Positions 19,372 to 43,738 of a stretch of 64,000 bases of DNA are shown here, piece after piece. Source of the DNA: Nisaea sediminum. Lineage in GTDB: Bacteria; Pseudomonadota; Alphaproteobacteria; Thalassobaculales; Thalassobaculaceae. Below the pieces are notes generated by a model. It did no database searches. It was not told the origin of the DNA and saw only the letters and a list, made by a program, of their open reading frames with translations. The position numbers were made by a program, and so were the translations under genes. The stretch spans positions 186,001-250,000 of the forward strand of contig NZ_JACZCQ010000004.1 in assembly GCF_014904705.1 (NCBI RefSeq), written 5' to 3'. Every line of letters begins with the position of its first letter. Position 1 is the first letter of the stretch.

Positions 19372-21021
19372 CTAATCATCCTCTCCGGCGGGCTCAGCCA
19401 GCGGAAAACTGATGAAGATGCGCGAACGGGATGCAGAGAATTCACGCTCGATTCTGCCACCGAGCTCAAGCTTGATGCTGGCATCGATGAGGCGCGTGCC
19501 GAAACCCTTGCGCCCCCCGTTTCCGGACAGATCCGCAGGACCGTCGTCCGGCGCCGCGCCCGGACGTTCCTCGATCCATTCGAGCTGCAGATGATCTTCG
19601 TCTTTGACAAGTTCCCAGGACACCTTCAGACGGCCGTCCCCATCGGAAACGCCGCCATATTTGAGGGCATTGGTGGCAAGTTCGTGGAAGGTAAGGCCAA
19701 GGGCCTGTGTTGCGGTCTCCCCAAGCTTGACCGATGGACCGTCGACCGCGCCTTCGGAAATCGCATCCCCGAAAACCTGCTGCAGCTCTCCACGCAGCAG
19801 CGTCTCGAGGTCCGCATTCAACCTGCCGGAGCTGGTCAGCAGATCCTGTGCGTTCGCCATCGCCTGCATGCGCGCTTCGAAGGACCGGCTGAAATCCTCC
19901 AGCGTCTCCGAATTCAACGCAGTCTGCCGCGCCATGGCGAGGATCCGGGTGATCGAGTTTTTGATCCGGTGCTTGGTCTCGTGCAGCAGAAGGTCCTTCT
20001 CCTCCACCGCCTTTTCTGTCAGTGCCTGGATTTCCCGGGCCGCTTCCATCGCACGGACCTGCAGCCGTGCAACCATGGCAAGCGCGCCAGAGAGCAACAG
20101 GAAAATCGCTCCGAGGACAGTGGTACGCCAGTAACGCGACGCGTCGAAGAAAGCCTTGGTCTCGTGCGCCGTGATGGTCCAGGAGCGCCCTGCGATGGGG
20201 AGCTTGCGCTCGACGGTGAACCTGCTCGACGCTGAAATCTCATCGTATCCATCCGAGTGGAACAGGAGCTCGGACTGCCCGTCTGTCGTGTCTCGGGTCT
20301 CGACGACGAGCGGGAGCCGGTCCGACCGTTCCAGCGCCGCCCGATGGAAGTCGCCGGCCCGGAAGGCGGCATAGACGAATCCGATCGGCTCGGCCCGATA
20401 AGCGACCCCGGTTCCCGAGCGGTAGAGCGGCGTATAGACGAGGAACCCGGCCTGCTTGACCGATGTCACCTCCTGCACCAGCGATACCGGTGCGCTCGCT
20501 GTATCCTGCCCGGACTCGATCGCGGTCTGCATCGCGCGGCGGCGCAGGGGCTCGCTGAACATGTCGTAGCCGAGCGCGGCCTCGTTCCGGAAATTGTGCG
20601 GTTCGAGCAGGACGATGACCGCGCGCCGGTCCTGATCCGTTTCCGGCCAGGCCTTGATCGCCCAGTCGTAGTTCCGCTCCAGCTCCGCCTCGACGTCCCG
20701 CTCCCGGCCGGCAGGCAGGAACCGCGCAAAGCCGAGGCCCTGCAGGCCATCGAACCGCTGCTCGATTTCCAGCCCGTCGACATAGGAGATGAAGTCCTGC
20801 CGGGACACGGTGCCGCGGCTGGTGGAGAAATAGGCGTTGGTCGCACGCAGCAAAGCCAGAGAGCGCCTGAGACGCTCGCCGATACGGTCGACCGTATCGT
20901 CGGCAAGAGCCTCGAAACGCGCCTGTTCGGCGGCTTCTTCGGCCCGGTAGACAACGATCGTCGTCGCGAGGCCGATCGATCCGACCAGAAGAAAAACAAG
21001 CAGCGGGAAATATCGGCTCAA
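19372..21021 (-). CDS. CHASE-domain HWE-family sensor histidine kinase
   Basis: A 549-residue membrane kinase read from TTG 21021, chosen because AAGGA lies 8 nt upstream. The frame is open to another TTG at 21087 without a good SD. A first membrane helix (about 8-27) and a second (about 302-320) bracket a periplasmic CHASE sensor (about 50-230). The phospho-acceptor is H351 in H-E-T-K-H-R-I-K-N. A histidine in the N-box (T-F-H-E-L-A-T-N-A) and W-x-E in the G1 region mark the HWE/HisKA_2 family used in PhyR phosphorylation. It lies near phyR and is a good candidate PhyR kinase. Confidence 0.85.
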   Translation of the reverse strand: MSRYFPLLVFLLVGSIGLATTIVVYRAEEAAEQARFEALADDTVDRIGERLRRSLALLRATNAYFSTSRGTVSRQDFISYVDGLEIEQRFDGLQGLGFARFLPAGRERDVEAELERNYDWAIKAWPETDQDRRAVIVLLEPHNFRNEAALGYDMFSEPLRRRAMQTAIESGQDTASAPVSLVQEVTSVKQAGFLVYTPLYRSGTGVAYRAEPIGFVYAAFRAGDFHRAALERSDRLPLVVETRDTTDGQSELLFHSDGYDEISASSRFTVERKLPIAGRSWTITAHETKAFFDASRYWRTTVLGAIFLLLSGALAMVARLQVRAMEAAREIQALTEKAVEEKDLLLHETKHRIKNSITRILAMARQTALNSETLEDFSRSFEARMQAMANAQDLLTSSGRLNADLETLLRGELQQVFGDAISEGAVDGPSVKLGETATQALGLTFHELATNALKYGGVSDGDGRLKVSWELVKDEDHLQLEWIEERPGAAPDDGPADLSGNGGRKGFGTRLIDASIKLELGGRIEREFSASRSRIFISFPLAEPAGEDD

Positions 21022-21189
21022 GAATGCGGTCCTTGAAAATTCGTTAACTTTTTTACGGCCTCCCCCGCGCTTCCGCAATTCTTTCAATTTGAAGCAATTC
21101 CGACCCGCCTCTCGAGCCGAAACCGGGGGAGATCAGCAGCTTCAACAAACCGGAATCTGAGAGAGGAAGAAGGTCAGCGAAAGGCGGGA

Positions 21190-21214
21190 GGAACAAATTC
21201 GAGCCTTAATCGTT
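21190..21214 (+). promoter_or_regulatory. EcfG-type promoter with no ORF behind it
   Basis: GGAAC at 21190-21194, 16 nt, then CGTT at 21211-21214 match the same EcfG promoter seen upstream of nepR-ecfG. It points away from both flanking kinase genes, which are on the minus strand, toward a terminator at 21303-21342. Confidence 0.7.
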
Positions 21215-21220
21215 GTCACT

Positions 21221-21342
21221 ATAACTGCAGCAACGCTGAGCGTTCTTACAAAAAAGAAAGCCGCACGACTGCAGACGGAATTCCAACTCCCGAGAGGTTT
21301 AGGCCGGCGCTGTCGCTCCCCTGACGGCGCCGGCAATTTTTT
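21221..21342 (+). ncRNA. Candidate stress-induced small RNA between two sensor kinase genes
   Basis: A transcript starting about 7 nt after the CGTT element at 21211 would run about 120 nt to the T-run at 21337-21342. It has a short 5' stem-loop (AACGC-TGA-GCGTT, 21232-21244), a single-stranded A-rich middle, and a G+C-rich terminator stem whose loop is C-rich (GCTCCCCT). No ORF with a ribosome binding site is evident. The layout resembles EcfG/sigmaT-controlled regulatory RNAs such as GsrN of Caulobacter in general plan only; no sequence homology was tested. The last 2 nt overlap the 3' end of the opposite-strand kinase gene. Confidence 0.55.
21303..21342 (+). terminator. Intrinsic terminator on the plus strand
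   Basis: GCCGGCGC (21303-21310) pairs with GCGCCGGC (21327-21334), and an inner GTC/GAC pair lengthens the stem. A run of six T follows at 21337-21342. There is no upstream plus-strand gene for it to serve, which supports a non-coding transcript. In the minus direction it immediately follows the stop of the kinase gene at 21341 but lacks a T-run. Confidence 0.75.
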
Positions 21343-22342
21343 ATTCTTCTTCGCGTTGCTGGAACGTCAGGCGGTAGGAAACCCGGTCGTCGTCATAGCG
21401 GTACTCGGCCTCGCCGCCGACCGCGTTCGGGACGACACGCTGCAACACGATGCTGCCGAAGACGCTCTGGTCCGCGATCGCATCATCGCTGAGCGTCAGG
21501 CCCTTCCGGTTCTCCGACCAGGTGACGGCAACCCGCGGGCACTCGTTCTTCTTGCGGGCCGCGGCGCAGGAGATTTCGATCGGCGCGCCGCCGGCACGCA
21601 TCGTTCCGGCGCCGGCCGCGTTGACCACAAGCTCATGCAGCGCAAGTCCGACATGCAGCGCCTCGTTCGGGTTGAGCCAGAGATTCTCGCCCGTGACGGA
21701 GACAGAACCGGGCACTTCCGGCAGGTACTTTTCGATCTGCTGTTCGGCAAGCTCGTAGAAACGGGCGCCGCGCCAGCTCGAATCCGTAATCAGGTCCTGG
21801 GATTGAGAAAGGGAATGGAGACGGCCGAAGAATTTGCGCTTGAAGAACTCCAGATCGGGCGCAAAACGTGCGGTCTGGTTCGCGATGCTCTGAATGATCG
21901 CCAGCAGATTCTTCGAACGGTGACTCAGTTCCCGCAGCAAGGCGCGCAGAATTCTCTCCCGGCGCCGTTCCTCTGTCAGATCGATGATCGTCGTCATGAC
22001 AGAGACGGATCCGTCGGCCGCGCGGATCGGCTCGGCATGGATCTCGAAGAACAGCTCGTCTCCCGGGGAGATTTCGGTCCGCCGCTTTTCCCCGGCCTCC
22101 AACGCCTCGCGTTTCAGCGCGGCGATTTCGGCGCCGCTGTCGGCACCGAAAATGGCGGTGTCCTCAGGGTTGCCCGCCGCATCCACCGACCAGCAGTCCG
22201 GGAGGTTGGCGATGAACACATAACCGAGATCGGCGCCCTGGAGCGTCACGCAGACGCCGGACCGGATCAACGCCCGGACCAGATAATCGCTGAGTTCGGA
22301 CTCGTTCTGGCCCGCCTTCTTCCAGGTCAGAGACTCCGTCAC
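21341..22342 (-). CDS. Soluble HWE-family histidine kinase with PAS-like sensor
   Basis: A 333-residue protein with no membrane segment. Residues about 18-125 look like a PAS domain ending in D-L-T-E-E-R-R-R-E-R. The phospho-acceptor is H141 in L-S-H-R-S-K-N-L-L-A-I-I. The N-box A-L-H-E-L-V-V-N-A-A with H236 and the W-S-E motif further on are the hallmarks of HWE kinases. The start is GTG 22342 with GGGGAGG upstream. It sits between phyR and a second HWE kinase, so it may feed phosphate into PhyR or act as a phosphatase. The two kinases differ in both sensor and location. Confidence 0.85.
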   Translation of the reverse strand: MTESLTWKKAGQNESELSDYLVRALIRSGVCVTLQGADLGYVFIANLPDCWSVDAAGNPEDTAIFGADSGAEIAALKREALEAGEKRRTEISPGDELFFEIHAEPIRAADGSVSVMTTIIDLTEERRRERILRALLRELSHRSKNLLAIIQSIANQTARFAPDLEFFKRKFFGRLHSLSQSQDLITDSSWRGARFYELAEQQIEKYLPEVPGSVSVTGENLWLNPNEALHVGLALHELVVNAAGAGTMRAGGAPIEISCAAARKKNECPRVAVTWSENRKGLTLSDDAIADQSVFGSIVLQRVVPNAVGGEAEYRYDDDRVSYRLTFQQREEE

Positions 22343-22623: not shown

Positions 22624-22648
22624 AACGCTTTTCTGGTCTTTTCGTTCC
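22624..22648 (-). promoter_or_regulatory. EcfG-type promoter of the DUF1328 gene
   Basis: Reading the minus strand, GGAAC (22648-22644), 16 nt, then CGTT (22627-22624). The start codon follows 30 nt downstream at 22594. The sequence fits the GGAAC-N16-CGTT consensus exactly. Confidence 0.8.
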
Positions 22649-22683: not shown

Positions 22684-23487
22684 TCATTCGGCTGCCGCCG
22701 CCGGAACCTCCCGCATGAAGAACAGGGCCTGACTGATCAGCGCCTTGACCATGTCCGGGTTGAACGGCTTCGTGACCAGGAAGGCCGGCTCCGGCCGCTC
22801 TCCGGTCAGGAACCGCTCTGGAAACGCGGTGATGAAGATCACCGGAATATTGCTGTCGGTCTTCAGAATATCGTTCACCGCGTCGATCCCCGAACTGCCG
22901 TCGGCGAGCTGGATATCGGCGAGAACCATCTTCGGCTTGGTGCGGGCAAAAAGGTCGACGGCCTCGGAATGGGTCCGCGCGATGCCGGTGACTTTGTGCC
23001 CGAGGGATTCGACCATCTGCTCGATATCCATCGCGATCAGCGGCTCGTCCTCGATGATCATGATGTCGGTCTCGACCTGGCGGGAGATCTCCTGCGACGC
23101 CTCATTGAGCAACGCGCCGACGCCGACCTCGTCCTGCCCGAGGATCTCGCCTATCTCGGCATGAGAGAAACCTTCGATCACGGCCAGAAGAAACGCCTGA
23201 CGCGCCACCGGAGGCACCGCAGCGAGATTTGCCGCCGCCCGTTTTTCCCAGGCATAGGGAGAGTCTTTCGGTTCGATCTCGATCGGAACGGAACCGAACA
23301 GGCGGGCGAAGAGTTTAAACAGGGACACGCGGTCGCTGGATGTTTCCGGGAAGCAGGAAACGTCGGCGATCAGCGCCTCGAGGGTTGCCGCGACATACGC
23401 GTCCCCGGACGTCTGCGACCCGCTGACAGCGCGCGCATGGCGGCGCAAGCTCGGAAGATGCGGAGCGACGCGAGTGGATAAAGACAT
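22684..23487 (-). CDS. phyR: PhyR-type response regulator, anti-anti-sigma factor
   Basis: A 267-residue two-domain protein. Residues about 20-137 resemble an ECF sigma factor (region 2- and 4-like helices, V-A-R-Q-A-F-L-L-A-V-I-E-G-F-S-H-A-E-I) without DNA-binding function. Residues about 140-257 are a receiver with acidic pocket E146-D147, phospho-acceptor D191, T220 and K240. When phosphorylated, PhyR exposes its sigma-like domain, binds NepR and frees EcfG. It is divergent from nepR-ecfG and has its own EcfG promoter at 23536-23560, giving positive feedback. Confidence 0.95.
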   Translation of the reverse strand: MSLSTRVAPHLPSLRRHARAVSGSQTSGDAYVAATLEALIADVSCFPETSSDRVSLFKLFARLFGSVPIEIEPKDSPYAWEKRAAANLAAVPPVARQAFLLAVIEGFSHAEIGEILGQDEVGVGALLNEASQEISRQVETDIMIIEDEPLIAMDIEQMVESLGHKVTGIARTHSEAVDLFARTKPKMVLADIQLADGSSGIDAVNDILKTDSNIPVIFITAFPERFLTGERPEPAFLVTKPFNPDMVKALISQALFFMREVPAAAAE

Positions 23488-23535: not shown

Positions 23536-23560
23536 AACGGACGGGCTGAAAAAAAGTTCC
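23536..23560 (-). promoter_or_regulatory. EcfG-type promoter of phyR
   Basis: On the minus strand, GGAAC (23560-23556), 16 nt, CGTT (23539-23536), with the phyR ATG 49 nt further on. It is placed back to back with the nepR promoter; the two -35 elements are 8 nt apart. Confidence 0.85.
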
Positions 23561-23568
23561 CCGGGTTC

Positions 23569-23593
23569 GGAACTTTTTTGATCGCCGTGCGTT
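23569..23593 (+). promoter_or_regulatory. EcfG-type promoter of nepR-ecfG
   Basis: GGAAC at 23569-23573, 16 nt, CGTT at 23590-23593, with the nepR ATG 34 nt downstream. This autoregulatory promoter is the reference from which the other sites in the window were recognised. Confidence 0.88.
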
Positions 23594-23627
23594 TAATTGC
23601 CGACTGACGCAGGTGGGAAAGAGATCC

Positions 23628-23831
23628 ATGGCCGACACAAACAACACGGACAACCGGGGACCGGCCCTCAACGGACCGCCCCGCGACAATGACGTAAACG
23701 CCCAGATTTCCGGGAAGTTGCGTGAACTTTACGATTCCGTCCGCGAAGAGGCGATCCCCGACCGTTTCCTCGACCTGCTCGAGAAACTCGACGAGGCGGA
23801 ACAGAATTCCAAGCTGGCGGTGAAGAAATGA
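23628..23831 (+). CDS. nepR: NepR-family anti-sigma factor
   Basis: A 67-residue protein with the NepR core I-S-G-K-L-R-E-L-Y-D-S-V at about 26-37 and the following P-D-R-F-L-D-L-L-E-K-L helix. NepR holds EcfG inactive and is captured by phosphorylated PhyR. I chose the ATG at 23628, with GGGAAAGAG before it, over a GTG 15 nt upstream. Its stop overlaps the ecfG start by ATGA, which ties production of the sigma factor to its inhibitor. Confidence 0.93.
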   Translation: MADTNNTDNRGPALNGPPRDNDVNAQISGKLRELYDSVREEAIPDRFLDLLEKLDEAEQNSKLAVKK

Positions 23832-24403
23832 GCGCGGACCGATCGACGGCCGGCGCCGCTGCCGCCGGTTTCAAGCGTGACATGATTGCGGCATTGCCCA
23901 ATCTCCGCGCCTTCGCCGTCTCCCTGATCGGCGCCTCCGACAAGGCCGACGATCTGGTTCAGGACACGATCATGAAAGCCTGGGCCAAGCAGGACAGCTT
24001 CACCCACGGCACCAACATCAAAGCCTGGCTCTTCACCATCCTGCGCAATGAGTTCTACAGCCAGATGCGCAAGCGGGGCCGCGAGGTGCAGGACAGCGAG
24101 GGCACCTTGACCGAGCGGCTCTCCGTACATCCGGAACAATACGGTTCGCTCGACATGCGGGATTTCCGCAGGGCGCTCGACACCCTGCCGGAAGACCAGC
24201 GCGAGGCGTTGATTCTCGTCGGCGCCTCCGGGTTCTCCTACGAGGAGGCCTCGGAAATCTGCGGCTGTGCCGTCGGGACGATCAAGAGCCGGATCAACCG
24301 CGGACGGCAGAAGCTGCAGGAGATTCTCTATATCGAGGGCCCCTCCGACTACGGTCCGGATGCCCTTTCCGCACCTGTCACCTCCCAGGCATTCGTCGCC
24401 TGA
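23828..24403 (+). CDS. ecfG: EcfG-type (ECF15) general stress sigma factor
   Basis: A 191-residue sigma-70 family protein. Region 2 covers about 20-85 (D-D-L-V-Q-D-T-I-M-K-A-W at 41-52), and region 4 covers about 118-165 (L-P-E-D-Q-R-E-A-L-I-L then V-G-T-I-K-S-R-I-N-R-G-R). It directs RNA polymerase to GGAAC-N16-CGTT promoters under general stress. It is translationally coupled to nepR and its targets appear to include at least six other sites within 10 kb. A short proline-containing tail follows region 4. Confidence 0.95.
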   Translation: MSADRSTAGAAAAGFKRDMIAALPNLRAFAVSLIGASDKADDLVQDTIMKAWAKQDSFTHGTNIKAWLFTILRNEFYSQMRKRGREVQDSEGTLTERLSVHPEQYGSLDMRDFRRALDTLPEDQREALILVGASGFSYEEASEICGCAVGTIKSRINRGRQKLQEILYIEGPSDYGPDALSAPVTSQAFVA

Positions 24404-27178: not shown

Positions 27179-27300
27179 AATTTCCTTCTCCTCATAGAAT
27201 AAAATTTCCACATCTCGTAATTCAAAGCGCTTCGATGAAATACCGTGCGCTTACAAAGGAGAAACGCCGAAAGCCCATTTATTGTTCCTTGTCTGTCAGA

Positions 27301-28428: not shown

Positions 28429-28453
28429 AACGCGCAAACAGAAAAAATGTTCC
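28429..28453 (-). promoter_or_regulatory. EcfG-type promoter of the OmpA-family gene
   Basis: On the minus strand, GGAAC (28453-28449), 16 nt, CGTT (28432-28429). The start codon is 119 nt downstream, leaving a 5' leader of about 110 nt. It lies just beyond the terminator of the preceding lipoprotein gene. Confidence 0.8.
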
Positions 28454-28800: not shown

Positions 28801-29904
28801 TCAACGTCCGGCCGGGCAAATGGTTCCGCCGGTTTTGTTTCCTGCGGCGAAATCGTAGGCCAGCTTGCCGAAAACGGCGATCGGAGCGGCCAGGAATGCC
28901 CCCGGCATGCCCCAGCACCAGGTCCAGAACAGCATGGAGAGGAAAACCAGGATCGGATTGAGGGTCATCTTCCGCCCCATTACGACGGGAGTTACCGCGT
29001 AGCACTCGATCGCATTGATCATTGCGAAAGCGGCCGGAGCCGCCGCGATCTGGAGCGGCGTCTCGAAACTCGCAAATCCGGCCAGGGTCAGCACCGCGAT
29101 CATCGCGAACGGACCGACGAAAGGCAGGAAATTCAGAAAGAAAGCGAGCACGCCCCAGATCGCCGGATTGGGCAGACCGATCGCAAACATGGCGAGCGCA
29201 GTCAGCACCCCCACCGCGAGATTGATCGCCGTCAGCGAGCGGACATAGGTCGAGAATTTCTCCTGCACCGCATTCATGAATGCAACGAAGCGGGTCCGGT
29301 CGGATACCCGGCGCACCAGGGCGCGCACCGTCTTCCGGCCTTGCGCCAGGAGCATGTAAAGCAGCCCGAGCGTGATCGCCATCTGCGCGAAGGTGAGCCA
29401 GGTGTAGCTGGCAAGCTGCTCCAGCATGGACGGGCCGCGCACCACGACCCTGGCGTCGTTGCCGCCACCGTTGTCTGCCATGTTCTTGATTTTCTCGGTG
29501 GCCTCGGACGCCTGCTCTATGGAGTGCCTGAGCCCCCAGAACTCGCGCTCCAGCTTACGCAGCATTGCCGGCAGTTCGTCGAGCCAATAGCCGGCAGGTT
29601 CTGTCAGCTGGAACAAAGCGAACGCGCCGGTGCCGATAAGCCCGGCAAGAACCGCAAGGGCGCCGAGCCAGTCCGGCAGGCCGACGGACTTCATGGTCCG
29701 GACGGCCGGATAGAGAATGACGCTGAGAAACAGCGCGAGGAAGATCGGAAGGAAAAGCTCGGAGGCGAGATAGAGTATCGAGCCGGCCGCGAACAGAAAC
29801 AGTCCGATGACGGCGACGGACTCAGCGTCGCGCATGCACTGCCTCCACGCGGCCGGCTCGCCCCCTACATCGTCACGGCTGCCGGCTCGATCCAGCAAGG
29901 ACAT
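28801..29904 (-). CDS. AI-2E family (PerM-like) membrane transporter
   Basis: A 367-residue membrane protein with about eight hydrophobic helices. The late motifs V-M-G-R-K-M-T-L-N-P and C-W-G-M-P-G-A-F-L-A-A-P are typical of the AI-2E/PerM/YdiK family. Members export varied small molecules or run as Na/H antiporters; few truly carry AI-2. I chose ATG 29904 after GAGAGGGGGG rather than an upstream start that would run into the next gene. It follows the PLDc_N gene by 25 nt and is probably read from the EcfG promoter at 30159. Confidence 0.82.
   Translation of the reverse strand: MSLLDRAGSRDDVGGEPAAWRQCMRDAESVAVIGLFLFAAGSILYLASELFLPIFLALFLSVILYPAVRTMKSVGLPDWLGALAVLAGLIGTGAFALFQLTEPAGYWLDELPAMLRKLEREFWGLRHSIEQASEATEKIKNMADNGGGNDARVVVRGPSMLEQLASYTWLTFAQMAITLGLLYMLLAQGRKTVRALVRRVSDRTRFVAFMNAVQEKFSTYVRSLTAINLAVGVLTALAMFAIGLPNPAIWGVLAFFLNFLPFVGPFAMIAVLTLAGFASFETPLQIAAAPAAFAMINAIECYAVTPVVMGRKMTLNPILVFLSMLFWTWCWGMPGAFLAAPIAVFGKLAYDFAAGNKTGGTICPAGR
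28803..28827 (-). promoter_or_regulatory. EcfG-type promoter of the small lipoprotein gene
   Basis: On the minus strand, GGAAC (28827-28823), 16 nt, CGTT (28806-28803). It sits inside the last codons of the AI-2E family gene and lies 64 nt ahead of the lipoprotein ATG. Confidence 0.8.
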
Positions 29905-30158: not shown

Positions 30159-30183
30159 AACGCGCGGACGGCGAAATAGTTCC
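30159..30183 (-). promoter_or_regulatory. EcfG-type promoter of the PLDc_N/AI-2E unit
   Basis: On the minus strand, GGAAC (30183-30179), 16 nt, CGTT (30162-30159), with the ATG 35 nt downstream. It is the seventh exact match to the same pattern within 9 kb. Confidence 0.82.
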
Positions 30184-41129: not shown

Positions 41130-42179
41130 CTAACGGAACAGCTCGAGACGGTTCTTGACCCGGAGGGTCCGGAACGCGCCGAGACTGACCGCAGCAAGCA
41201 GGACGAATCCCTGGATCAGGGGCTGCAGCAGCGGGTCTATCGAGAGGATGCGGAAATAGAACGAGATCACCCTGAGGATCAGCGCTCCGACGAGCGACGC
41301 GATGGCGCCGCCGACGCCGCCGAGCAGCGAGGTACCGCCGAGCACCACCGCGGCGATCGAATTCAGCGTATAGGCTCCGGCCTGGCTGATATCCGCGTTG
41401 CCCGAGGATGTCTGGATCGCGAGATAGAGCCCGCCGCATGCGGCGAAGAAGCCCGCCAGCGTGAAAGCCGCGATCTTGGCCCGCGCGAGCGGCAGCCCGG
41501 ACATGAAGGCCGCGCCCTCCGCCGAGCCGATCGCGTAGATCGCCCGTCCGGTAACCGTCCGCCGGAAGGGAAGCCAGACCCCGAAGGCAATCAGCACCAC
41601 CAGAATGACCGGCACCGGGATCCAGGCAATCGCCTGGAACCAGCCCGCATCCGGATCGAAGAGCCGGTAGGTGTCGACGAAGTCCCAGAGCGCGTTGGTC
41701 AGCGCCCAGCTCATGTCGTCGTCGACATTGCCGCCCGGCTTCGGCCGGATGAACAGGGCGAAGCCCATGGCGACGGCCCCAGTGGCCAGCGTCGCGATGA
41801 TCGGCTGCAGCCGGCCATAGACCACGATCAGCCCGTTCAGCAGCCCGAAGGCGGAACCGCAGGCGAGCGTGATCAGCGCACCGAGAAAGATCTGCCAGGG
41901 CGAACCGTGGAGCAGCTCCGAGGCGATGCAGTTGGCCAGCGTCATCACCGCGCCGACACTGAGATCGAGTCCGCCGAGCAGAACCGGCGCGGTCTGCGCC
42001 ATGGCGACGAAGATGATCGCCGCGGACTCGTTCGAGTTCTGGATCAGGATGGCCGAGGAAAAGCCCCTCGGATGCATCACATTGTAGATCGCATAGAGCA
42101 CGATCAGCATGGTGACCGCTCCGATGAAGGCGCGGTTCTGCCGGAACAGGGTGACAAGAGCTCCCGAACGCCCGCTCAT
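41130..42179 (-). CDS. Sugar ABC transporter permease, RbsC-like
   Basis: A 349-residue permease of the same family, with L-L-G-G-L-D-L-S-V-G-A near residue 75 and A-A-V-V-L-G-G-T-S-L-L-G-G near residue 275. An insert (about 150-185) distinguishes it from its partner. It overlaps the ATPase gene by ATGA. Two unlike permeases rather than a homodimer suggest a branch of the family that carries pentitols, autoinducers or less common sugars. Confidence 0.9.
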   Translation of the reverse strand: MSGRSGALVTLFRQNRAFIGAVTMLIVLYAIYNVMHPRGFSSAILIQNSNESAAIIFVAMAQTAPVLLGGLDLSVGAVMTLANCIASELLHGSPWQIFLGALITLACGSAFGLLNGLIVVYGRLQPIIATLATGAVAMGFALFIRPKPGGNVDDDMSWALTNALWDFVDTYRLFDPDAGWFQAIAWIPVPVILVVLIAFGVWLPFRRTVTGRAIYAIGSAEGAAFMSGLPLARAKIAAFTLAGFFAACGGLYLAIQTSSGNADISQAGAYTLNSIAAVVLGGTSLLGGVGGAIASLVGALILRVISFYFRILSIDPLLQPLIQGFVLLAAVSLGAFRTLRVKNRLELFR

Positions 42180-43738
42180 CGCGCGCCCTCCCCGCTTCCC
42201 GGCAATCCGATATTGAGCGAGGCGGCGACGATCGCCTCCTCGGTGACCGCCTCGTCCTCGAGTTCGGCCACGATCGCGCCGTCATACATGATCGCCACCC
42301 GGTCGCAGCAGCCGATCAGCTCGTCGTAATCCGTCGAATAGAACAGGATCGCCTTGTCCGCGTCCGCGAGGTCCCGCAGGAGCCGGTAGATCTCCTGCTT
42401 GGTGCCGACATCGATGCCCCGCGTCGGATCGTTCAGCAGGATCACGTCCGGATCGGTCATCAGCCATTTCGCGATCACAACCTTCTGCTGGTTGCCGCCG
42501 GAGAGGGTTGCGACCGCGTCCTCCTGGCGTCCGATCTTGATCTGCAGGGTCCGGATGCCCTGTTCGACCGCGTCCCGTTCGAGCTGCGGGTCGATGAAGC
42601 CGCCCTTTGAGACCTTGTCGAAGGAAGCCGCGAGCAGGTTGTCCGCGATCGACATCGGCAGCATCAGCCCCTCGGTCTTGCGATCTTCCGGCACCAGCGC
42701 GATCCGGCGTTTTTCGGATTTCGCCTCGGCCGGCGAGCCCGACAAGGCGGACACATCGCCGACGCGGGCCGCCCCGCGCACATCGCGAAGCACGCCGAAG
42801 AGCGCCAGCAGGAGCTCTTTCTGTCCCTGGCCGTCGAGACCGCCAAGGCCGACGATCTCGCCCTTGCGGACCGTGAGATCGACGCCCTTCAGGCGGTTCT
42901 CCCAGGAAAGCCCCTCCACCACCAGATGCGGCGCCCGGGACGCCTTCTCGGGTTTCGGGGGATAGTAGCTGCTGACCTCGCGGCCGATCATCAAGCGCAC
43001 GATCTCGCTGTCCGTCCGTGACCCTTTGGGGAAAGTCTCGACATGGCTGCCGTTGCGGAAGACCGAGAGCGTGTCGCAGAGCTTCTCCACCTCGTGCATG
43101 CGATGGGAAATGAAAAGGATCGAGGTTCCCTGCGCTTTCAGTTCCTCAAGAAGTCCGTAAACCGTCTCGACGTCATGGCGGGTTAGCGCGGAGGTCGCCT
43201 CGTCGAGGATCAGCACCTGCGGCGCCTTGCCGAGAGCCTTCGCGATCTCGACCATCTGCCGGCGCGAGAGGCTGAGCTCCCGGACCAGCGCGCGCGGATC
43301 GACATCCTCGCAGTGAATGCGGGCCAGCAGGTCCTCCGCTTTCTCCCGCTGGGCCTTCCCATCGATCAGGCCGAAGCGGCGCGGCGGATCGGCGAGCGAG
43401 ATATTGTCCGCGACGGAGAGATCGGGGACGAGAGAGAGTTCCTGGAAGACGCAGACGATCCCCGCAGCCGCGGCTTCCGCCGGACTGGCGAAGCGAACGG
43501 CTCGACCATCGACATGCATCCTGCCCGTGTCCGCCTGGTGCACGCCGGACATGATCTTGATGAGGGTGGACTTGCCCGCCCCGTTCTCACCCAGGATCGC
43601 GTGGATCGAGCCGAGCCGGCAGGCGAAATCGACATTCTCGAGCGCCCGCGCACCGGCGAAATATTTCGAGACACCCGCGAGTTCGAGATGCGGGCTCCCC
43701 TGCCCGTTCAGGGCGGCGTCCTGCGCCTTCGGGATCAT
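42176..43738 (-). CDS. Sugar ABC transporter ATPase, RbsA/MglA-type
   Basis: A 520-residue double ATPase. The first half has Walker A (G-E-N-G-A-G-K-S-T, about 50-58), signature L-S-L-S-R-R-Q-M-V and Walker B (L-I-L-D-E-A-T-S-A-L). The second half keeps L-S-G-G-N-Q-Q-K-V and V-I-L-L-N-D-P-T-R-G-I-D-V-G but lacks a good Walker A, as usual for this family. It powers sugar uptake with the permeases downstream. Two stem-loops separate it from the binding protein gene. Confidence 0.93.
   Translation of the reverse strand: MIPKAQDAALNGQGSPHLELAGVSKYFAGARALENVDFACRLGSIHAILGENGAGKSTLIKIMSGVHQADTGRMHVDGRAVRFASPAEAAAAGIVCVFQELSLVPDLSVADNISLADPPRRFGLIDGKAQREKAEDLLARIHCEDVDPRALVRELSLSRRQMVEIAKALGKAPQVLILDEATSALTRHDVETVYGLLEELKAQGTSILFISHRMHEVEKLCDTLSVFRNGSHVETFPKGSRTDSEIVRLMIGREVSSYYPPKPEKASRAPHLVVEGLSWENRLKGVDLTVRKGEIVGLGGLDGQGQKELLLALFGVLRDVRGAARVGDVSALSGSPAEAKSEKRRIALVPEDRKTEGLMLPMSIADNLLAASFDKVSKGGFIDPQLERDAVEQGIRTLQIKIGRQEDAVATLSGGNQQKVVIAKWLMTDPDVILLNDPTRGIDVGTKQEIYRLLRDLADADKAILFYSTDYDELIGCCDRVAIMYDGAIVAELEDEAVTEEAIVAASLNIGLPGSGEGAR

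Follow-up and report, generated by a model that had tools for sequence, protein, structure and literature searches.

What is an EcfG-type promoter doing between two histidine kinase genes that are both read in the opposite direction? The question is raised by positions 21190–21342 of a 64,000-nucleotide stretch of the Nisaea sediminum genome (the window), beside the genes of the general stress response (GSR). The original prediction placed here a small RNA (sRNA) dependent on the sigma factor EcfG, and the promoter, terminator, fold and conservation make this the best reading of the sequence. We consider it quite probable that the element specifies an EcfG-induced, base-pairing sRNA of the GSR, of the kind of ReC64 in Rhizobium etli or GsrN in Caulobacter; the support lies in the promoter, terminator, fold, selection and conserved position. 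The predicted features are as follows.

21190–21214, plus strand: EcfG-type promoter GGAAC-N16-CGTT of the sRNA (GGAAC at 21190–21194, CGTT at 21211–21214)
21220–21342, plus strand: predicted sRNA of about 120 nt, its start placed by promoter spacing and its end by the T run
21225–21274, plus strand: 5′ domain closed by CTGCAG/CTGCAG (21225–21230 paired with 21269–21274 in the predicted fold)
21287–21296, plus strand: middle segment CTCCCGAGAG, partly accessible; its part CCCGAGAG is common to the window and Nisaea nitritireducens RNAs
21303–21342, plus strand: intrinsic terminator with a 13-bp stem (21303–21334), an exposed CUCCCC loop and the tail AATTTTTT

The promoter is present as described and points against both minus-strand flanking kinases. 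EcfG-type motifs (N15–18) occur 13 times across the window, where 1.62 are expected and none of 100 shuffles reaches 13; eight of them fall between 21 and 31 kb. A plus-strand motif with N16 arises in 25 of 20,000 dinucleotide shuffles of 21088–21340. Over the whole genome there are 95 EcfG motifs (N16–17) against 55 for the reversed control, so isolated matches elsewhere carry little weight, and it is the local cluster that stands out. The GC-rich stem with its six T residues was also found as predicted. Terminator-like sites are not enriched in the window as a class (13 versus 14.9 expected); among these 13, the sRNA terminator has the most stem pairs. Its final two bases fall within the stop codon of the opposite-strand kinase P0001. 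The predicted sRNA fold has a z-score of −3.5, with none of 200 shuffles equally stable. The 5-bp stem-loop of the original prediction exists as a sequence (AACGC-TGA-GCGTT, 21232–21244), but the predicted fold favours the outer CTGCAG/CTGCAG stem instead. No plus-strand open reading frame (ORF) of at least 20 aa lies between promoter and terminator, as had been stated. Rfam 15 gave no match at gathering score in the window or in nine related loci. CcsR1 (RF02791), which by its Rfam description is stress induced and carries a C-rich motif, as proposed for the window RNA, was considered and rejected (12 bits against a gathering score of 65.3, E 3.9).

The element is kept in close relatives; the loss of promoter and terminator there, which by the original prediction would have refuted the sRNA, was not observed. 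An alignment of the window with a second species of the genus (G004) covers 5,314 columns at an identity of 0.908. Its longest run free of differences is 21216–21343 (128 nt), which starts just after the −10 element and stops at the T run; all seven perfect 122-nt segments (of 5,192) fall inside it, and 21221–21342 is identical at 122 of 122 positions. Both promoter elements are unchanged in G004, with one change in the spacer. By comparison, the right-hand kinase gene is identical at 912 of 999 positions (269 of 333 third positions) and the left flank (21034–21180) at 130 of 146. Judged by this alignment, the putative transcribed element from promoter to terminator is under strong constraint. 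In N. nitritireducens (locus L035; an identical stretch is contained in G003 of the same genus), the same place holds a promoter, at a distance of 159 nt from the kinase stop, and a terminator of 13 bp with a T8 tail. The two Nisaea RNAs share CTGCA with GACTGC, CCCGAGAG and a terminator whose loop is C-rich. They differ in the 5′ loop: that of N. nitritireducens is rich in C, that of the window RNA is not, and in the window RNA it is the terminator loop that exposes CUCCCC. Among 36 family genomes searched at the DNA level, only G000 and G004 gave matches; G001 and G002, two of the five genomes of the genus, have no DNA match and lack this PhyR.

The same arrangement is found in most of 80 loci, the best 80 of 548 from a PhyR search, mostly from Rhizobium and its kin. 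A P0001-like kinase adjoins PhyR in 79 of them, and in 57 of these 79 a strict antisense GGAAC-N16-CGTT lies within 450 nt past the kinase stop, where the loci's own motif density predicts 0.066 per 450 nt. (Two of the 57 promoters, in L040 and L078, run into a protein gene.) The spacer is 16 in all 60 promoters collected (15–18 allowed; the match nearest the kinase taken), a set made up of 58 loci, the window and G004, and including L040, L078 and L090. A covariance model (R1) built from 30 rhizobial RNAs recovers the RNA, with E values no higher than 1.1e-11, in 60 of the 80 loci; it faces the kinase in 58 and is flipped in two. Of these 60 sequences, 30 also went into the model, and the set includes many near-copies. 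Nine extra matches below E 0.001 lie on the opposite strand around the same RNA. The flipped sRNAs (L073:6602–6715 and L108:8236–8349) point away from the kinase, with an EcfG-type motif just upstream. At L068, L105, L107 and L113, the model finds the sRNA and the −10 element reads AGTT, not CGTT. In the rhizobial consensus, a 5′ stem bearing a long C-rich loop is followed by a second hairpin, its loop also C-rich, and by a terminator; by eye, and with no separate score, CTCCCGAGAG of the window looks like CTCCCGATGAG of rhizobial stem II. In the alignment, 93.9% of the cells pair in the RNAalifold structure. Of the 21 pairs in the 30 rhizobial RNAs, 16 show changes on both sides (9.9 on average after shuffling, none of 500 shuffles with as many), and slid partners give just 2–5 two-sided pair changes.

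Several observations weigh against an EcfG-induced, base-pairing sRNA of this kind in the window, among them its 5′ loop without a C-rich stretch. Twenty of the 80 loci have no model match at E 0.001 (L035, L036, three loci with a protein ORF and 15 others). In the three ORF loci (L040, L078 and L090), what follows the antisense EcfG promoter is a protein gene of 65 codons. On the window RNA itself, model R1 scores 7.7 bits (E 0.05 in 2 kb; the runner-up has 6.9 bits), and the sole match of a wider search in the window is elsewhere (42158–42246, 8.4 bits). Shuffled versions of the two C-rich segments reach equally low pairing energies with 50 ribosome-binding site (RBS) regions of the window in 117 of 200 and 154 of 200 cases. 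The covariance search of relatives thus recovered the RNA in rhizobia but is not significant on the window, so what speaks for the window RNA being related is its position, promoter, terminator and selection. N. nitritireducens gives a weak match at the right place and strand: 15.2 bits, with E 0.13 in 391 kb and 6.5e-4 in 2 kb without filters, where the next best has 1.4 bits. Through this intermediate and its position, the window RNA likely descends from the rhizobial RNA, although its own sequence match is not significant.

In Nitratireductor and Zhengella (L040, L078 and L090), the 65-codon ORF (MNWNQ…) replaces the sRNA; we take its product to be CsbD-like. A weak match in Rhodobium orientis (L036:7165–7286; 23.6 bits, E 0.001) was set aside, as its immediate upstream region shows no EcfG-type motif; the closest one, at about 6861, stands ahead of a small ORF.

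The position of the RNA against a kinase gene invites other explanations. It could be a cis-antisense RNA, or an element of transcriptional interference, that tunes the kinase gene: sRNA and kinase are convergent, and the kinase has its own EcfG-type promoter (22624–22648), so both may be induced together. However, the sRNA overlaps the kinase ORF by 2 nt only, the loci differ widely in how far the RNA lies from the stop codon, and in L073 and L108 the RNA is flipped away from the kinase; we think this explanation improbable. Alternatively, the hairpin could serve mainly as the 3′ end of the kinase mRNA (a bidirectional terminator or 3′ stabiliser), with the promoter a leftover or driving a decoy transcript. 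An A run and the stem do follow the kinase stop directly in the window and in N. nitritireducens, but a T run is present on the plus strand only, the kinase strand reading CTAAACC after the stem. In rhizobia a gap separates the terminator from the kinase stop, and the 128-nt identity and the conserved promoter would be left unexplained; this, too, is hardly probable. That the promoter drives a very small protein is very improbable, since no frame of at least 8 aa exists in the RNA of the window, G004 or N. nitritireducens and the rhizobial base pairs covary, despite the 65-codon ORF behind the antisense promoter in L040, L078 and L090 and frames of at least 8 aa (16 to 30 aa) in four of 13 RNAs examined. 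The suggested effect on the kinase message is less well supported. The 3′ end reaches the stop in the Nisaea loci, and the sRNA may affect the kinase message through this shared 3′ end, but rhizobia do not conserve the overlap.

We return to a regulatory sRNA of the GSR, whose core (HWE kinases, PhyR, NepR and EcfG, by Pfam) adjoins the site. The neighbouring features are as follows.

19372–21087, minus strand: CHASE-HWE histidine kinase P0002, divergent from the sRNA promoter (Pfam CHASE, HWE_HK; start codon uncertain)
21341–22342, minus strand: HWE histidine kinase P0001, on the PhyR side (Pfam HWE_HK)
22624–22648, minus strand: EcfG-type promoter upstream of the PhyR-side kinase (motif match)
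22684–23487, minus strand: PhyR (Pfam PhyR domains), with an EcfG-type promoter at 23536–23560
23613–24403, plus strand: nepR-ecfG (Pfam NepR, Sigma70_r2, Sigma70_r4_2), with an EcfG-type promoter at 23569–23593

Further minus-strand EcfG-type motifs are located at 27263–27288, 28429–28453, 28803–28827 and 30159–30183; a PRC-barrel protein and an OmpA-family protein are encoded downstream of the first two. The extra motifs in the window suggest a local EcfG regulon.

We infer the transcription, EcfG dependence, trans action and targets of the window sRNA, and a mechanism can be outlined on that footing. PhyR would release EcfG from NepR. EcfG would then transcribe about 120 nt rightward from 21190–21214, up to the hairpin that abuts the kinase stop. 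The exposed CUCCCC of the terminator loop and the partly open CUCCC of the middle segment would pair with G-rich leaders or RBSs of stress-related mRNAs, and this pairing would alter their translation or stability. By analogy with GsrN, trans-acting base pairing through exposed C-rich stretches is the likeliest mode of action. The middle segment is predicted to pair with the phyR RBS at −18.0 kcal/mol, second among 50 RBS regions of the window. For the katG RBS region the values are −14.9 kcal/mol (middle segment) and −10.7 kcal/mol (loop), and 11 and 15 of the 50 regions, respectively, pair as well. When accessible segments from 25 chosen loci were compared with 300 of 953 pooled RBSs, the fraction pairing as strongly as the phyR RBS had a median of 0.12 and a mean of 0.26 (window, 0.11; N. 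nitritireducens, 0.60). Neither test, on the window RBS regions or on the 25 loci against pooled RBSs, singled out a target. As crude gene starts were used, we regard the outcome as a lead rather than a result.

Comparison with known systems draws on portions of the cited papers. ReC64 of R. etli lies downstream of tcrY beside phyR, its start was mapped by 5′ rapid amplification of cDNA ends, and its reporter activity is abolished without ecfG1 (PMC3892343). It gives a Northern blot signal (PMC2881028), and it has been detected in stationary phase. One study reports an increase under saline shock and assigns SigA and RpoH motifs instead (PMC4167512). ReC64 resembles the window RNA in its place beside a GSR kinase, and for ReC64 the EcfG dependence is published. 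It is reported as 88 bp with an unexplained larger band, whereas about 120 nt are predicted for the window RNA; we equate it with the collected rhizobial RNAs by place, not by sequence. The window RNA differs from the rhizobial RNAs in sequence and in the position of its C-rich stretch. GsrN of Caulobacter crescentus is driven by EcfG/SigT and exposes a C-rich loop, and its homologues are usually near the GSR core; those predicted are in R. etli, S. meliloti, B. abortus, Agrobacterium, Rhodopseudomonas and Bradyrhizobium, and the available part of the paper names no Nisaea (PMC5869019). GsrN carries its exposed tandem-C loop in the 5′ domain, unlike the window RNA, in which CUCCCC is in the terminator loop. 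Further traits of GsrN are pairing with the katG leader, with activation of katG, processing to a stable 5′ isoform and an Hfq effect. The C-rich loop of the original prediction is thus present, but in the terminator; with none in the 5′ domain of the window RNA, strict kinship to GsrN is less well supported. RpoE2-dependent and alarmone-dependent sRNAs are described in S. meliloti (PMC3616915, PMC6180224) and R. etli (PMC3188799), none of them placed here in the portions available. Among the papers listed on the GSR in Nisaea and on GsrN or ReC64, none showed a Nisaea sRNA.

How did Nisaea come by a rhizobial arrangement? The family sample comprised 36 genomes (20 of them at least 90% complete; an order search gave the same 36), and this PhyR occurs in G000, G003 and G004 only (84–100%). 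The best other full-length PhyR match in the family is 30% identical, with receiver-domain matches up to 44%. Of 385 genomes sampled from the class, 62 gave a match, and PhyR identity outside the genus peaks at 55%. The Nisaea PhyR is 80% identical to that of Rhodobium and 73–78% identical to those of Rhizobium-type loci. A kinase search of the 385 class genomes returned only two of the genus and five weak matches (31–37% identical). In a quick PhyR tree, three Nisaea and 26 Rhizobiales rows, the latter drawn from the best 80 matches, form one group (SH-aLRT 100), separate from 28 class rows, which may include further Rhizobiales families, and three family rows; long branches prompted a warning from the program. 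The approximately unbiased test does not reject a single clade of the 26 Rhizobiales rows (p 0.526). Nesting of the Nisaea PhyR within Rhizobiales was considered, and this value fits a sister position as well as a nested one. The EcfG tree splits 19 class rows from Nisaea plus Rhizobiales with support 98, and the Nisaea rows hold together with a support of only 3. The right-hand OmpA-like gene goes with the block (93% in G004, 70% in G003, at most 41% in G001 and G002). The left-hand subunit gene, which we take to encode a formate dehydrogenase subunit, is outside it (on another contig in G003, present in G001, absent from G002). The putative block would span about 19300 to at least 28300 of the window.

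As PhyR and EcfG group with Rhizobiales and are rare in the family, a transfer of the locus is suggested. The simplest reading of the sequences is a block transfer of the GSR locus from a Rhizobiales-like donor, bringing the RNA with it; loss elsewhere in the family may have produced the pattern instead. It is possible, though on balance unlikely, that the whole module (kinases, PhyR, NepR, EcfG and sRNA) crossed alphaproteobacterial orders as one block, and that in the recipient the promoter, place and terminator of the RNA stayed as they were, whereas its C-rich stretch was relocated from the 5′ domain into the terminator loop and re-aimed at messages of the host, perhaps the phyR RBS as feedback.

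The candidate would extend the EcfG-driven sRNAs beside the GSR locus to Nisaea. The rhizobial RNA is a family with strong covariation and without an Rfam match in seven scanned loci holding it. Together they make an apparent natural case of a regulatory RNA travelling with its locus, which would let the conserved parts be separated from those that were re-tuned.
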